Positions 720 to 15,452 of a DNA stretch of 64,000 nt are shown here, piece after piece. Made by a program: the position numbers and the translations under genes. The notes under the pieces are model-generated. The model saw only the letters and a list, made by a program, of their open reading frames with translations. It did not search any database and had not been told where the DNA came from. The stretch is from assembly GCA_017857395.1 (NCBI GenBank), contig JAFMDF010000016.1:1-64000 (forward strand). Direction: 5' to 3'. This DNA comes from Bacteroidota bacterium (GTDB lineage: Bacteria > Bacteroidota > Bacteroidia > Chitinophagales > Saprospiraceae). Each line of letters opens with the position of its first letter. Position 1 is the stretch's first letter.

Positions 720-753
720 TTCAGTTTTTATTCAGAATCTATCACTAGTTTTG
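720..753 (+). promoter_or_regulatory. Direct-repeat promoter of a small RNA
   Basis: TTCAGTTT (720-727), 3 bp, TTCAGAAT (731-738), 7 bp, then the -7 box TAGTTTTG (746-753). No protein gene follows within the next 105 bp, which end in an intrinsic terminator. Confidence 0.8.
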
Positions 754-757
754 CATC

Positions 758-857
758 GTAAAAAAGAAGGATAAAAAATATAAGGAACTAACTTGGTTCC
801 TAAAAATAACTTCCACACCTTGCCGAGCGATGCCCAATTCCGCTCGGCATTTTTTTT
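758..857 (+). ncRNA. Probable ~100-nt small RNA with intrinsic terminator
   Basis: The promoter at 720-753 predicts a start near 758. A small hairpin (AGGAAC 783-788 with GTTCCT 796-801, 7-nt loop) follows, and the stretch ends at a 9-bp GC-rich terminator with eight T. No convincing start codon and reading frame fits between promoter and terminator. The 5' part (ATCGTAA, GGATAA, then the GAAC/GTTC hairpin with a 7-nt loop) resembles the start of the transcript predicted at 12536, so the two may be related RNAs. The transcript itself is inferred. Confidence 0.6.
821..857 (+). terminator. Intrinsic terminator of the small RNA
   Basis: Stem TGCCGAGCG (821-829) pairs perfectly with CGCTCGGCA (841-849) around an 11-nt loop and is followed by eight T (850-857). 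There is no T-run on the minus side, so it acts on plus-strand transcripts only and does not serve the convergent SET gene. Confidence 0.85.
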
Positions 858-871
858 GGTATCTCTCAAAA

Positions 872-1471
872 TTAAACAACTAGCGACTGTTGAAATTTCA
901 AGCGACTCACAGATTCATAAGGTATTTCTCCTAAACCATAAGCTAGCAGTAGCTCTATTATTTCTGGTTCTATCAGAGATAATAAAGGTTGTTCGACTGT
1001 TGAAAATTGCGGTAAGACTGCCTTTAATTTTTTATCCCACAAAGGAACACAAGTATCAAAATCAGTAGGTCTTAATACACCTCGGCAACTGAGCTTACTA
1101 CAATATAAAGGCATTTCATCTGCAGCATTGAGCAAACCATAATCACAAGTAATTTCTTCTCCTAGGTGAATGTCTCTGACGGCAATATCAAAGCCGAAAC
1201 TGGCGCTCAACGTATTGCTATCACAACAATGATTGACATATTTTGCCAAATCCCAACTGATGATACGAATGCCTCGCTCGTCCATGTAGGAATATTTTTC
1301 AATGATTTGTTGCATCGCCAAATCATGTAGTAGATAATCTTCGGTAAGGACTTCAACGTCCAATACATCTTTGGCATAAATAATCGTTCCTGCAGGAATA
1401 AACTGCGTTGCAAAAACACCGTATCCAATGATGTCGCTAATGTGTTGAAGACGAGTGTGCGGATGAATCAT
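872..1471 (-). CDS. SET-domain protein (putative protein-lysine methyltransferase)
   Basis: The 199-aa protein carries a recognisable SET fold: the N-terminal GYGVFATQFIPAGTII strand (residues 16-31), the pseudoknot motif YVNHCCDSNT (78-87, matching the family NHxCxxN) and GEEITCDYG (104-112, matching GEEL(T)xDY). A short Cys-containing tail (YCSKLSCRGVL) resembles a post-SET segment. Family members transfer methyl groups from S-adenosylmethionine to protein lysines; the bacterial target here is unknown. Promoter 1603-1636 lies about 130 bp upstream and gives a long leader. It is divergent from the phosphatase gene at 1768. The family call is firm; activity is inferred. Confidence 0.85.
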   Translation of the reverse strand: MIHPHTRLQHISDIIGYGVFATQFIPAGTIIYAKDVLDVEVLTEDYLLHDLAMQQIIEKYSYMDERGIRIISWDLAKYVNHCCDSNTLSASFGFDIAVRDIHLGEEITCDYGLLNAADEMPLYCSKLSCRGVLRPTDFDTCVPLWDKKLKAVLPQFSTVEQPLLSLIEPEIIELLLAYGLGEIPYESVSRLKFQQSLVV

Positions 1472-3027: not shown

Positions 3028-3993
3028 TCAAGGAAAAACTAAGATTAACTGATGCAAACCATGTTGATGAAGGTAAGTAATCTTGATGTCATATAAATCA
3101 CAAATCCGTTGGATAATAGATAGCCCCAATCCTAAACTTTCTTCTACGGTCGATTCCCGTTTAAATCTTTTAAAAAGGCTTTCTGGAGCAACTTCCAAAA
3201 CTTCTCCTGAATTAGAAATAGTGACCGTTCTTTCTTTAATTTGAATCCGAATAAAGCCATCTTCCACATTATACCGAATCGCATTTTGAAACAAGTTAGC
3301 GAATAAAATCTCTGCTAAAGTTTCGCTCATTTCTACCGTTAATTCCTCCCCAAAATCTTCTGTTACTTTGATTTCTTGCAAGTTGATTAAATCTTTAAAA
3401 TTACCAAGCATCTCGCTAATGACCCGTTGTATGATTACAGTTTCGACATCAGAATAGCGATTATTTTCAATTTTTGATAATAAAATTAAAGCATGATTCA
3501 ATTTAGCTAAACGGTTAGTATTTTGTAAAATAACGCCTAAAGAGGTGATTTCTTTTTCTTTTAAATGAGGAGAATTGAGTAATATCTCTACATGTCCTTT
3601 TATGATGGCTAAAGGGGTTTGTAATTCGTGAGAGGCATTTTGAGTAAATTGTCTATTTGCTTGATAATTACTACGAATGCGTTCGATTAATTCTAAGATA
3701 CTTTCGTTTAGTTCATTGAATAGTTGATAGGTAGACTTTTCAAAGATGACCTTCTTTGGTTCATCCACATCAAATTCCTCCAAAGTGCCAATAATTTGTA
3801 TTAATTGATTCTGCACGCCTTGGATACGTCGATTGGTAATGATGCGAAAACCGATGCCTAGAATACTTAAAGGAATTAGACTAATTAGGGCAACGGTAAA
3901 AAATTGTTGCGGAAAGAAATAGCGAGCCATGCCTAGCCCTGCAAATATAGCCGTAGCGGTAATGGCGATATAAAATCCATTTATTTTGTTCAA
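3028..3993 (-). CDS. Sensor histidine kinase with minimal sensor region
   Basis: A membrane histidine kinase of 321 aa. Two membrane helices (about residues 7-23 and 32-50) are joined by only some eight residues (ARYFFPQQ), so there is no periplasmic sensor domain. This resembles intramembrane-sensing kinases. HisKA has the phospho-acceptor in ASHELQTPLA (H122). The HATPase domain shows an N-box (NLFQNAIRYN) and a G-box (LGLGLSIIQRI). The coding sequence overlaps the upstream response regulator gene by 4 bp, so the two are co-translated partners. Its location inside the cluster of direct-repeat promoters makes the pair the obvious candidate controller; that link is inference. No direct-repeat site lies upstream of this operon. 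Confidence 0.92.
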   Translation of the reverse strand: MNKINGFYIAITATAIFAGLGMARYFFPQQFFTVALISLIPLSILGIGFRIITNRRIQGVQNQLIQIIGTLEEFDVDEPKKVIFEKSTYQLFNELNESILELIERIRSNYQANRQFTQNASHELQTPLAIIKGHVEILLNSPHLKEKEITSLGVILQNTNRLAKLNHALILLSKIENNRYSDVETVIIQRVISEMLGNFKDLINLQEIKVTEDFGEELTVEMSETLAEILFANLFQNAIRYNVEDGFIRIQIKERTVTISNSGEVLEVAPESLFKRFKRESTVEESLGLGLSIIQRICDLYDIKITYLHQHGLHQLILVFP

Positions 3994-4667
3994 TTGCTAA
4001 TAAATTTATAGCCTACCCCATAGACGGTTTTTAAGTAATCCCCACAATCGTTTTGCACCAGCTTTTTTCGTAGATTTTTGACATGGGCATAGATGAAATC
4101 ATAGGAAAAGGCATCATCCATATAGTCACCCCAAAGGTATTCAGCAATACTGTCTTTGGTAACAACTCGATTTTTATTTCTAGCCAAATAGACCAAAATA
4201 TCAAATTCCTTTTTAGTGAGTTTTAATGTGGTCTCATTAGCGACTACTGACCGTTTATCTAAATCTATCAGTAAACTTCCAAAGACTAACTCATTGCTCA
4301 TTTGATTGGTCTTCCTCCTCAAAATAGCTTTAATCCGTGCATTTAATTCCGATAGATTAAAAGGCTTGGTTAAATAATCATCTGCTCCTACTTCCAATCC
4401 ATTGATACGGTCATCCAAGGTATTTCTAGCAGAAATAATAATCGTAGCTGTATTGGGCATTTCTTTTCTCAATATATCAATCAATTTCAGTCCATCTCCT
4501 CCAGGTAAATTTAAATCAACAATTGCGCAATCGTATTTATAATTATTGATTTTTTTATAGCCTTCTCTAAAGGTGGTTGCATGTTCACAGACATAGCCCT
4601 CTCGTTTCATGTATCGCAACATTAAATCAAGCAATTCTTGTTCATCTTCTACGATTAATACTTTCAT
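3990..4667 (-). CDS. OmpR/PhoB-family response regulator
   Basis: A DNA-binding response regulator of 225 aa. The receiver domain (1-120) has the acidic pocket VEDE (6-9), phospho-acceptor D51 in IVDLNLPGGDG, and the switch lysine in DDYLTKPF (near residue 100). The C-terminal winged helix (130-225) includes LTKKEFDILVYLARN and the VYGVGYKF wing typical of OmpR/PhoB. Members usually bind as head-to-tail dimers to two direct repeats about 10-11 bp apart, which is the layout of the 14 promoter sites around this gene. It overlaps the kinase gene by ATGA. Binding to those sites is inferred, not shown. Confidence 0.93.
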   Translation of the reverse strand: MKVLIVEDEQELLDLMLRYMKREGYVCEHATTFREGYKKINNYKYDCAIVDLNLPGGDGLKLIDILRKEMPNTATIIISARNTLDDRINGLEVGADDYLTKPFNLSELNARIKAILRRKTNQMSNELVFGSLLIDLDKRSVVANETTLKLTKKEFDILVYLARNKNRVVTKDSIAEYLWGDYMDDAFSYDFIYAHVKNLRKKLVQNDCGDYLKTVYGVGYKFISN

Positions 4668-4904: not shown

Positions 4905-5486
4905 TTAATCTAAATCTTCTTCAGAGAAATTATCTAAATCCAATGCGGTGCCCATACCTAAATCATCCTCCATTTCTATATCTAAGTCGTCTTCGTCTTC
5001 CCAATTTTTAGAGACAGCAGGTTTTATTTCGGGCTTACGGATAATTTTAGAAATGATTTTTGGACCACTAGCAGTAGTCCTGACCTCTGGCTTATAAGCC
5101 TTCTTTATTGGCTTGCGACTATTATCCATTTTTGCCACTAAACTTTTAGTTGTTGTAGGCACCGCCAATAGTCGTCTTTTATCGATTAATTCCCCAGTAA
5201 TGACGCAGATTCCGTAGGATTTGTTATACACACGTTGTAATGCATTTTGTAAATCCATAAGGTGTTTTCTCTGTCTATTAGCCATTACTTCTAACATTTC
5301 AATATCTGAACTATTAGAAGAATCATCCATCCAGTCCCCTTCGTTATCTTTGGATTCGGCTGCATGGGTCAATCGTTCTTCTAAAGAGTTTAGTTGCCTT
5401 TCTGTTTTTTCTATTTTCTTGTCGATATGGGCTTTGAACTCATTCAAATCTACTTCCGAATATCTGTTACTAGTTTGATTGGTCAT
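4905..5486 (-). CDS. TraR/DksA-like regulator with acidic tail
   Basis: A 193-aa protein of the TraR/DksA type. Residues 1-80 form a charged coiled-coil hairpin, with an acidic tip (ESKDNEGDWMDDSSNSSD). Residues 88-118 (YNKSYGICVITGELIDKRRLLAVP) match the globular region of Bacteroidota TraR/DksA proteins. A four-cysteine zinc finger is absent, since only one Cys is visible. Such proteins enter the RNA polymerase secondary channel and alter initiation. The last 60 residues are a basic then very acidic low-complexity tail (ENWEDEDDLDIEMEDD type), longer than in usual members. It is expressed from the direct-repeat promoter 5559-5592. The family call is good; the effect on transcription is inferred. 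Confidence 0.82.
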   Translation of the reverse strand: MTNQTSNRYSEVDLNEFKAHIDKKIEKTERQLNSLEERLTHAAESKDNEGDWMDDSSNSSDIEMLEVMANRQRKHLMDLQNALQRVYNKSYGICVITGELIDKRRLLAVPTTTKSLVAKMDNSRKPIKKAYKPEVRTTASGPKIISKIIRKPEIKPAVSKNWEDEDDLDIEMEDDLGMGTALDLDNFSEEDLD

Positions 5487-7935: not shown

Positions 7936-8091
7936 ATGATTAAAGTAAAAGCATATTTCCGATTAATGAACTGGAAATGGGCGAAATCTAGACAAATAGT
8001 CCTTATGGAGGATATAGCCGACGAAGACGAAATTACAGAATTCGACTCAAGCCCCTATTTAGGATGGATGGAAAAAGAAAGGCAGTATTAG
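7936..8091 (+). CDS. Short conserved protein, PYLGWME family, copy 2
   Basis: A 51-aa protein from ATG 7936 to TAG 8091. It is paralogous to 2561-2737: both have YxRLMxWKW near the N-terminus, an acidic middle (ADEDEITEFD) and PYLGWMEKE near the C-terminus. It has no signal peptide, no membrane span and no Cys. It lies between a direct-repeat promoter and the second LMW phosphatase gene, mirroring copy 1 although in the reverse order. I recognise no described family. The two-copy conservation and the fixed partner suggest a real protein, perhaps an adaptor or inhibitor of the phosphatase (inference). Confidence 0.68.
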   Translation: MIKVKAYFRLMNWKWAKSRQIVLMEDIADEDEITEFDSSPYLGWMEKERQY

Positions 8092-12496: not shown

Positions 12497-12531
12497 TTCA
12501 GATTTTATTCAGAATTAGGTGCATATATTTG
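12497..12531 (+). promoter_or_regulatory. Direct-repeat promoter with no protein gene behind it
   Basis: TTCAGATT (12497-12504), 3 bp, TTCAGAAT (12508-12515), 8 bp, TATATTTG (12524-12531). It is 35 bp long, one longer than most. It points into an 800-bp stretch without a credible reading frame. Confidence 0.72.
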
Positions 12532-12535
12532 TATC

Positions 12536-13345
12536 GTAACAAAGTGGATAATTAAAGAACTTTAATGGTTCGATATTCCCATAAAAAATGGGATTAAAAG
12601 ACGTTTTATCAATTTGATTTTAGTTGTTTGAAAAGTAAAATGTAAGTGGGTTTTAGGAAGTGTTTCCTCGGGCGAGCAAAGCTAAATTATTATCGTTTTT
12701 TTTCGATTCAAATTAGCACTTGGACCAGTCACCCTTTTTCTAAAAGGGATTTAAAAATTTAAATGGCTTGGATTAGTTTTTGAGTTTTTATGCAGGGAAG
12801 TGCTTTCTATTGGGAGTTATAAAAGTAATAGGTTTTAATTTATTCTATGCAAATAAATGCTTTAACCTTTATTTGGTTTCTATTACTAATTAAGTGGTTT
12901 GCTAAATTAGAAATAAGCTCACCTTGATACTTTGGCATTAAGCAGAAAATTGTATAATTTCATACGTTACCTATCGCTTTTTGTCCTATTAGTTTTTTGA
13001 AAATAGCATTCAATATTTAACTTACATTTATACTTAAAAAAAGCGGCATAAACAACTATTTAATCAAAATTTGTAAAACGATTGCTTAACTAAATTTTAT
13101 TTTATGAGTCAACCAAATCAGCGGAGCGCAAAGGTAACAAGCTCTCAAACTTTGCGTCAATTCTCATGAGAGCATTAGCTTAGGATGAAAGAAATTCAGT
13201 TCAAAAGGTGTCTTTATTTGAAATAGTAAAACTTATAAGAGATGTGAAAAATTGATTGATTTAGTAACTTTATCTTTTGTATAAGTACCATTTTGATAGG
13301 ACCAATATCTTTATTGACAACTGATATAAAAAGTATAACGAAATT
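12536..13345 (+). ncRNA. Gene-free 0.8-kb stretch, possibly a non-coding transcript
   Basis: No credible protein gene is seen on either strand. The predicted transcript begins like the small RNA at 758: ATCGTAA, GGATAA, then GAAC (12557-12560) pairing with GTTC (12568-12571) around a 7-nt loop. More hairpins follow: TCCCAT (12577-12582) with ATGGGA (12588-12593), and an imperfect one around the eight T near 12696-12703, where a short RNA could end. If not, the next strong stop is the hairpin at 13361-13392. Alternatively the stretch is a decayed insertion. The length of the RNA is unknown. Confidence 0.35.
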
Positions 13346-13555
13346 TCACCGGGCTAATACAAAAGCCGATTGATGGAAGTCAATCGGCTTTTGTTGTTTT
13401 AACGCCCATTTTTCTATTACGGGAAATGGAGATTGTCCAAAACCTAATTTATAAACCTTTTTGCCCGCTGCAACTAAAGCATTACTTCGTTCATTGATAA
13501 CCAAAGTAGCAGACGGGTTTAGATTGGTAATATTTGAATTTATTAAAGATTCCAT
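13346..13555 (-). pseudogene. N-terminal remnant of an aminotransferase gene
   Basis: Residues 1-46 of this frame (ITNLNPSATLVINERSNA to GFGQSPFPV) match the N-terminus of the complete aminotransferase at 22277-23533 closely in both protein and DNA. The match ends at about 13417. The frame then continues through unrelated sequence and straight through a terminator hairpin (KPIDFHQSAF is encoded by the stem). About 370 residues, including the PLP lysine region, are missing. No direct-repeat promoter precedes it, unlike the full gene. It is best explained as a duplicate deleted from residue 46 to its 3' end. Confidence 0.8.
13361..13392. terminator. Strong bidirectional terminator hairpin
   Basis: AAAAGCCGATTGA (13361-13373) pairs perfectly with TCAATCGGCTTTT (13380-13392) around a 6-nt loop. 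T-rich sequence follows on the plus strand. It could end a transcript from 12536 and, on the other strand, the remnant aminotransferase or amidotransferase transcript. Confidence 0.8.
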
Positions 13556-14428: not shown

Positions 14429-15253
14429 TTAAGCAGAAATCTCCCCGTCAATTACAATCCGCTGCATCAAGCGATGTGCTGGATAAAAATCATTAATCGG
14501 TTTATGTTGGGTAGCTCGGTTATCCCAGATAGCAATGGAATTTGCCTCCCAACTAAATCGGCAGGTATATTCGTCTGTTACAATATGCTTATACAGAAAA
14601 TCGAGAATCGCATCACTTTCTTTACTACCGACACCTACTATATGTGTAGTAAATAACCGATTTACATATAGCATTTTTTTTCCTGTTTCTGGATGAGTTC
14701 GTACGATAGGATGTTCCAAGGGAGGATTGTCAACTACTGCTTGCGCTAAGCGTTCTCTACCTCCTGGTTCTGCTAAACTTTCTTTAAAGCCATAAGAAAA
14801 ATCATGTACTGCATTTAAGCCATTTAGATATTGTTTCATATTGTCAGATAAGGCATCATAAGCAGCTGAGAGGCTTGCGAATGAGGTATCTCCTCCTTTT
14901 TCGGGAATGATGACACCATGCAAAACACTTCCTAAAGGTGGATTTTTACGAAAAGTCATATCCGTATGCCAAGTGTCAATTTTATAGGGTTTATCTGCCG
15001 TGGCCTCCAAGATGGTAATTTCAGGAAACCCTTTGACCGTTTGATAAGCAGGATGGGTTTGAAATGGTCCAAAAATAGATGCCAATGCCCTATGATTCGC
15101 AGGTTTAAGATTTTGGTCTCTAAAAAAGATGACCTGATGTTCTAACCATAGACGGCGAATTTCTTTAGCAGCGATTTTAGAGATAGGTCGTGTTAAATCA
15201 ATACCATAAATTTCAGCACCTAATGCTCCAGCGATTAACTTTATGTCAAACAT
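14429..15253 (-). CDS. TauD/TfdA-family Fe(II)/2-oxoglutarate dioxygenase
   Basis: A cytoplasmic dioxygenase of 274 aa from the ATG at 15253. A start 12 codons earlier is open, but family members begin at the strand equivalent to FDIKLIAGALGAEIYGIDL. The iron facial triad is HxD in DTWHTDMTF and the distal His in NRATQHKPIND, with the 2-oxoglutarate-binding Arg in HRLMQRIVIDG. The family hydroxylates taurine, 2,4-D, carnitine precursors and related acids; the substrate here is unknown. The gene is followed closely by the amidotransferase gene and controlled by the perfect direct-repeat promoter at 15419-15452, giving a leader of about 160 nt. Confidence 0.9.
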   Translation of the reverse strand: MFDIKLIAGALGAEIYGIDLTRPISKIAAKEIRRLWLEHQVIFFRDQNLKPANHRALASIFGPFQTHPAYQTVKGFPEITILEATADKPYKIDTWHTDMTFRKNPPLGSVLHGVIIPEKGGDTSFASLSAAYDALSDNMKQYLNGLNAVHDFSYGFKESLAEPGGRERLAQAVVDNPPLEHPIVRTHPETGKKMLYVNRLFTTHIVGVGSKESDAILDFLYKHIVTDEYTCRFSWEANSIAIWDNRATQHKPINDFYPAHRLMQRIVIDGEISA

Positions 15254-15418
15254 GATTTTAATTGTTTGCAAAAAAAGAACTAAGGGCAAGTAAAACCTTC
15301 AGTTTTGTTCCGAAACCTTTCGGGATTTATTTCTAAGTAAAAAACAGGAAAACAGTTTGTTAAAAATATTGAGTGGAATCATTCATCACTCGGCAAGTTT
15401 TAATTAACAATTTTGGTG

Positions 15419-15452
15419 CAAATGTAGCAAGCAATTCTGAATAAATTCTGAA
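15419..15452 (-). promoter_or_regulatory. Direct-repeat promoter of the TauD-amidotransferase operon
   Basis: Minus strand: two perfect TTCAGAAT copies (15452-15445, 15441-15434), 7 bp, then TACATTTG (15426-15419). This is the best match to the consensus in the window. The transcript start (TTGCACCAAAATTG) resembles that of the DksA-like gene. Confidence 0.85.

Follow-up and report, generated by a model that had tools for sequence, protein, structure and literature searches.

A predicted two-component-controlled small RNA in Saprospiraceae with a covarying terminator hairpin

Small RNAs whose expression is controlled by two-component systems are well known as a kind. Titrating RNAs of the CsrB/RsmZ type carry several hairpins with GGA in the loop, and transcription attenuators are hairpin terminators placed in mRNA leaders. 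CsrB and CsrC are reported to be small RNAs activated by the two-component system BarA-UvrY (PMC4682653). In Bacteroides, FopS and GibS are presented as small RNAs associated with the RRM protein RbpB; they share a conserved segment (R1) in a single-stranded 5' end, their structure was deposited in Rfam, and RRM-1 proteins are treated as a family with known small-RNA partners in this genus (PMC11697453). For Rfp18 of Flavobacterium, the published work describes a third stem-loop that pairs and protease mRNAs that are targeted (PMC9723704). We found no paper on small RNAs of the bacterial family Saprospiraceae in the accessible open-access literature, and they seem hardly described.

We analysed a stretch of 64,000 nt from a member of this family (hereafter the window; contig JAFMDF010000016.1) and concentrated on the unit at positions 720-857. 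The accessible open-access literature yielded no description of this RNA or of the box that precedes it. Our main reading, to which we give a probability of about 0.6, is that 720-857 is a gene for a two-component-controlled small RNA of about 99 nt, that its family usually heads a cluster of dksA-like and response-regulator genes, and that the working part of the RNA, which would act in trans, is the loop of the terminator hairpin. Like CsrB and CsrC, it would be a small RNA under a response regulator, for which feedback and titration of a partner are possible. Unlike them, it has one conserved hairpin with an 11-nt AnGnnnnAUWC loop, a candidate regulator of the OmpR type and no Rfam match; GGA occurs in the loop of this hairpin in none of 16 copies, which sets it apart from the CsrB/RsmZ type. 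It resembles FopS and GibS in being a Bacteroidota small RNA with a promoter, a 5' stretch and an intrinsic terminator, and RRM-1 domains are present in 12 of the 13 genomes that carry it. It differs from them, as they are described, in its conserved part, which is the terminator hairpin with its loop and not a 5' R1, and in the lack of an Rfam match. With Rfp18, compared by its published description only, it shares being a conserved Bacteroidota small RNA with strong secondary structure. The likeness to attenuators is confined to six copies in which the hairpin, partly with a T-tract, lies between a box promoter and a dksA-like gene; in six other copies a second box follows the hairpin, and neither the window unit nor a second copy of it in the same assembly (on contig C55) has a tested sense gene behind it. 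Judged from these comparisons of sequence, this is a new family of putative two-component-controlled small RNAs, less usual in that what is conserved is a terminator hairpin and its loop, which mRNA leaders also carry.

The unit at 720-857 and its surroundings

All parts of the unit lie on the plus strand. It opens with a regulon box, TTCAGTTTTTATTCAGAAT (720-738), which has no mismatch to the box pattern and consists of a direct repeat, TTCAG-n6-TTCAGAAT, with an 11-bp period. Because of this period and of the linkage described below, the box is a probable binding site of an OmpR-type response regulator. The -7 element TAGTTTTG (746-753) follows, which we take to fit the Bacteroidota consensus TAnnTTTG, and the 5' end of the RNA was placed from this element at 759 (±3 nt). 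The predicted RNA of about 99 nt (759-857), delimited by promoter and terminator placement, fold and family conservation, contains a 5' hairpin of 8 bp with a 3-nt loop (783-801, from the fold), a C-rich single-stranded linker, CCACACC (813-819, from the alignment), and the terminator hairpin TGCCGAGCG / CGCTCGGCA (821-829 / 841-849), with a covarying, G+C-rich stem of 9 bp. The stem encloses the 11-nt loop AUGCCCAAUUC (830-840; AnGnnnnAUWC in the family) and is followed by the T8 tract of the intrinsic terminator (850-857). Read directly from the letters, the GC-rich 9-bp stem and eight T at about 105 bp from the promoter are as the original prediction gave them. By its sequence features, the unit thus has a promoter and an intrinsic terminator of its own around a short non-coding stretch. 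The fold of 755-857 has an energy of -27.3 kcal/mol (z = -4.4 relative to shuffled sequences).

This arrangement had been called one of the cleanest promoter-terminator pairs in the window, and it is in fact the only one under a strict definition (box with at most one mismatch and, no more than 140 nt behind it, a perfect stem of 8 bp or longer that contains five or more G-C pairs and precedes T6). This definition was chosen after the unit had been seen; under it, the site at 720 is the sole pair among the window's 13 box sites with at most one mismatch, and no pair arose in 200 shuffles. A generic scan for sigma-70 promoters and terminators neither found nor refuted the unit, its loops being limited to 3-8 nt and its sigma-70 pattern misfitting the promoter type. 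The sole plus-strand frame of at least 25 aa over the RNA (793-1068) has a TTG start and extends across the terminator into the antisense strand of a SET-domain gene, in agreement with the earlier view that no credible reading frame lies between promoter and terminator. This SET-domain gene (872-1471, minus strand) is the antisense neighbour of the unit, and there is no sense gene behind the RNA.

The box is strongly enriched in the window. With at most three mismatches we counted 22 matches (2.2 in shuffles), and with at most one mismatch 13 sites (shuffle mean 0.085); eight of the 12 sites without mismatch in the 10-Mb assembly lie in the window. Boxes are found upstream of genes for a universal stress protein, an LMW phosphatase and a DksA/TraR-like protein, while others precede genes for a TauD-family dioxygenase and a pyridoxal-dependent decarboxylase, and a cluster with an ATP-grasp protein.

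The DksA/TraR-like protein (4905-5486, minus strand; just below the Pfam cut-off) is the first member of a dksA-regulator-kinase cluster spanning 5486-3028. It is followed by an OmpR-type response regulator (3990-4667, minus strand; Pfam Response_reg and Trans_reg_C) and a sensor histidine kinase (3028-3993, minus strand), whose nearest NCBIfam model is PorY with 290.9 bits, below the cut-off of 350. The name of that model, T9SS_HK_PorY, refers to type IX secretion. Orthologues of the dksA-like gene are headed by the RNA in relatives, and orthologues of the regulator stand after the RNA/dksA unit in 11 loci and directly after the RNA in genome G001. In the window, the dksA leader has lost the hairpin, and the free unit is found past the opposite end of the cluster. 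Based on this linkage, the regulator at 3990-4667 is the most likely candidate activator of the box.

Relatives of the hairpin

Rfam release 15 gave no match at gathering score anywhere in the window, and when the threshold was made permissive the family closest to 700-900 by E-value was SorX (0.55, with 14 bits vs the 46.6 needed). When the whole unit was compared with 40 genomes by DNA similarity, the one full-length match besides the window was the C55 copy, the other listed matches being short. The letters of the window terminator, searched in 150 family genomes, had two matches with three mismatches outside the window's assembly (G000), in G081 and G154. We therefore used a looser pattern and then covariance models. 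Matches to the looser pattern such as those in G203, G169 and G143 were dropped, as they appeared by eye to be chance matches in coding sequence, and the SET gene was abandoned as a marker since the RNA is not linked to SET in general. A first covariance model (model R1), built from eight hairpins with no promoter sequence included, picked out eight further copies in 398 family genomes. A second (model R2), built from all 16 copies, was run on the same 398 genomes. Model R2 separates the 16 copies on which it was trained (at least 44.8 bits) from the next match (at most 34.1 bits), while in model R1 the copy of G197 (33.2 bits) scores below two box-less matches, L210 (34.5) and L211 (33.3).

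These 16 high-scoring copies occur in 13 of the 398 family-level genomes and in six of 112 genera. The window's assembly has four, and one each is found in G001, G005, G007, G100, G117, G119, G132, G193, G197, G254, G318 and G347. The carriers are patchy, even in the window's own genus (4/9 genomes), and the genomes are partly fragmentary. At E ≤ 0.001 model R2 has matches in 27 of the 398 genomes, those beyond the carriers being low-scoring. Among the low scores, L214 (G122) fits the loose loop pattern, has no box and is coding-like in appearance. At the order level, high-scoring copies were found among 396 genomes only in G000 and G193, both members of the family. Fourteen loci of this search, inspected by eye, resemble ordinary terminators or coding sequence; one of the fourteen, L236 (G569), has the loop letters but neither box nor T-tract. 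The hairpin thus belongs to an RNA family without an Rfam match at gathering score, undescribed as far as Rfam shows.

The stem is conserved as a structure. Over 15 distinct sequences, 98.5% of its cells are paired and six of the nine pairs are doubly changed (23 cells). In 500 shuffles, which do not keep the relatedness of the sequences, none reaches the count of double-change cells or the covariation score and two reach the number of pairs; the further pair types (seven) are fewer than in the shuffles (10.7). When the stem is slid along the alignment as a control, 21.5-47.4% of cells are paired and at most one pair is doubly changed. Compensatory changes therefore back a conserved RNA structure at six of nine pairs. 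The stem of G347, with GGG/CCC, is intermediate between GAG/CTC in the window's genus and GGA/TCC in others. In the loop, five of 11 positions (A12, G14, A19, T20 and C22) are invariant in the 16 copies and a sixth is only T or A; the closing pair G11-C23 is likewise unchanged in all 16, and the loop of G117 has one base fewer. For an ordinary terminator one would expect the opposite, a free loop and no matched changes in the stem.

Upstream of the hairpin, six of the ten copies in the full-length alignment have a linker CACACC or CCCACC. The 5' part is better folded than shuffles in the window (z = -3.0), in G100 and in G347, no better in C55 (z = -0.8), and G318, G197 and G193 have no stable 5' fold. 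The 783-801 hairpin was rejected as a conserved element. Its sequence recurs only in C55, where one pair of the 5' hairpin has a compensatory change, another has become G-U and a third is broken, and the 5' hairpins of other relatives are unrelated or absent. A search for covariation had been proposed for both hairpins of the unit; covariation is found in the one at 821-849, by the doubly changed pairs given above, and that at 783-801 is not conserved.

A box with at most two mismatches lies 36-103 nt upstream of each of the 16 copies, including the eight outside the training of model R1, these strong copies having been selected by score and loop with their context in view. None of the 29 weaker matches compared (one of which, L220, has only 131 nt upstream) stands behind a box, the nearest having three mismatches, and in a rough look at 11 further weak loci, of which L237 and L249 are off-centre, the best box match had four. 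A TTG at constant distance follows the box in 15 of the 16 copies, the exception being G318. The order of box, short non-coding stretch, hairpin and T-rich stretch is thus kept in 13 genomes of six genera, which lends support to the original prediction of an RNA of about 100 nt under the regulon's control; on such sequence evidence we regard this RNA as likely at most.

The next gene on the same strand is dksA/traR-like in 12 of the 16 copies and a response regulator in G001; in that genome, a weak dksA-like match (42% over ~50 aa) precedes the RNA and shares its strand. Behind dksA comes a response regulator of the same orientation at 11 of the 12 dksA loci; the exception is the 2-kb locus of G007, in which we found no regulator and in which the gene behind dksA is kinase-like and oppositely oriented. 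The dksA-linked copies were checked for second promoters in the form of boxes, and this divides them evenly. Six copies (G100, G117, G132, G197, G254 and G318) have a further box 20-30 nt past the hairpin, so that the RNA would be a transcription unit of its own there. In the six without one (C107, G005, G007, G119, G193 and G347), dksA begins 26-137 nt downstream, and the T-tract is poor in C107, G005 and G119.

The window itself has a second copy of the hairpin (15361-15397, minus strand; 49.3 bits with model R1 and 44.8 with model R2), in the leader of a TauD-family gene (14429-15289, minus strand; TauD Pfam match) and downstream of a perfect box (15434-15452, minus strand). Its lower stem is broken and its fold is no better than that of shuffles (z = -0.7).

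Rival readings and proposed working

Several other explanations can account for parts of these observations. The hairpin may be a cis attenuator, i.e. a terminator under regulation within the dksA-like cluster's leader, which stops transcripts from the box promoter unless a factor binds the loop, and the window copy would then be a displaced leader, a relic or a by-product. The six loci where the hairpin stands between box and dksA with no second box fit this explanation equally well, the TauD leader shares their layout and the window unit does not adjoin dksA. However, the second box would restart transcription behind the hairpin in six genomes, making read-through needless there; some of the leaders have a poor T-tract; and the window and C55 copies keep hairpin and T8 with no sense gene behind them. 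An attenuator or its relic explains the leader forms well and the second boxes not; we consider it unlikely, if still to be reckoned with. It is improbable that the unit simply joins an ordinary promoter to an ordinary terminator around a functionless RNA, any likeness to relatives being due to shared descent only. Such an origin would suit the fast divergence of the 5' part of the RNA and the presence elsewhere in these genomes of G+C-rich GCCGAG-type terminators with other loops, but not the paired stem changes over six genera around a partly fixed loop, nor the position behind a box of 16/16 copies vs 0/29 weaker hairpins.

A coding function is very improbable. A short peptide could be encoded by the frame through the hairpin (LPSDAQFRSAFF in the window, MSDDAKFHPTFF in the g93 genomes), which is open in 12 of 16 copies and starts with ATG in four g93 genomes. 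Yet it is interrupted by in-frame stops in four of 16 copies and shifted in G117, third codon positions are not favoured among the variable loop columns (13, 15, 16, 17, 18 and 21), the third-position columns 19 and 22 are invariant, and the frames either stop at the T-tract or extend past it. A conserved short frame in relatives would have spoken against an RNA gene; across the 16 family copies none was found. Least credible of all is that the hairpins serve to terminate transcription of the antisense SET gene and the plus-strand promoter is unrelated to them: the 783-801 hairpin with a T-rich stretch on the minus strand does score as a terminator, but the T8 of the 821-849 hairpin is on the plus strand, and in 13 of 16 copies the hairpin precedes dksA or the regulator on the same strand.

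We thus return to the small RNA as the preferred explanation, and the best reading of its history is that it arose as, or doubles as, the leader of the dksA-like/response-regulator cluster. A response regulator, most likely that at 3990-4667, would activate the unit through the tandem TTCAG box and the Bacteroidota-type promoter. RNA polymerase would halt at the 821-849 hairpin, freeing an RNA of about 99 nt; in relatives, the RNA would be made as a separate terminated unit before a second box, or the hairpin would be transcribed inside the dksA leader. The AnGnnnnAUWC loop, kept on a stem that covaries freely, may be the site where a protein or a complementary RNA binds as a partner. Because no sense gene lies behind it, the window RNA would act in trans, and its simplest role would be to give the two-component system feedback control over its cluster or regulon. 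A cis role probably exists beside that of a small RNA, the hairpin being part of the dksA-like leader in some relatives. If one common partner recognises the hairpin, its occurrence both in dksA leaders, in cis, and as part of a free RNA, in trans, is as expected. RRM-1 proteins, given their presence in most carriers, are available as partners, although this is not evidence of binding. A search for pairing of linker or loop with the start regions of dksA and of the regulator in nine genomes gave no consistent partner; low shuffle fractions were limited to isolated combinations (linker and dksA in G100 and G132, loop and dksA in G117, and loop and regulator in G254).

A more speculative extension, which we think quite unlikely, is that one loop-hairpin site serves twice: within the leader of the DksA-family gene it would act in cis, and in the freed small RNA it would be a trans decoy for the same protein partner, with an RRM protein or the DksA-like protein and its basic tail as candidates. 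If true, this would be a two-component-driven circuit of RNA titration around a secondary-channel factor of RNA polymerase, in a phylum where the partners of small RNAs are hardly known. The RNA offers a regulatory hypothesis (box, two-component system and dksA-like gene), a structure supported by covariance and a loop that can be mutated, and hence a concrete route to an RNA-binding partner in this part of the Bacteroidota.

Rearranged copies and other boxes

The C55 copy (locus L009) has 85% identity over the 141-base query. Compared with the window, its hairpin and T-tract are identical (39/39), while the 5' part of the RNA has 37/53 and the SET fragment 256/271 identical positions; the difference between 39/39 and 256/271 is not by itself proof of selection. 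The surrounding stretch of L009 (4806-6252) is a mosaic of truncated pieces of the regulon in which the box, hairpin and T-tract of the RNA unit are intact. Its dksA lacks the N-terminus and the match to it ends at 5192, where the match to the window RNA unit begins. The 3' end of SET is fused to sequence like window 13229-13399, and there is a fragment of an arginase-family gene. Lying in such a rearranged stretch, the C55 copy could be a relic. The assembly G000 consists of 631 contigs with a contamination of 4.8% and contains divergent versions of pieces of the gene island (C71, C107, C63 and C55), for which paralogy and a mixture of strains cannot be told apart.

Some minor observations concern other leaders and boxes. 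The TauD leader (15361-15452, minus strand) closely resembles the dksA leader of G007, suggesting that a promoter-leader cassette may have been copied. In G193 (L207), a second inverted repeat, AAGGTGCATC...GATGCACCTT, with a T-run lies just before the dksA start, like another leader terminator. Two similar small frames of 58 and 51 aa with ...YLGWME... (2561-2737 and 7936-8091, plus strand) stand behind boxes at 2426 and 7820; they have no Pfam match above cut-off, and a relative is present in G005. The window stretch at 12497-13400 (plus strand) has a perfect box, after which more than 1 kb is without a plus-strand frame of 100 aa. Its first 55 nt are 77% like the start of the 720-857 unit and it has a GAACTTTAATGGTTC hairpin; from its sequence, this stretch is a possible second non-coding transcript.
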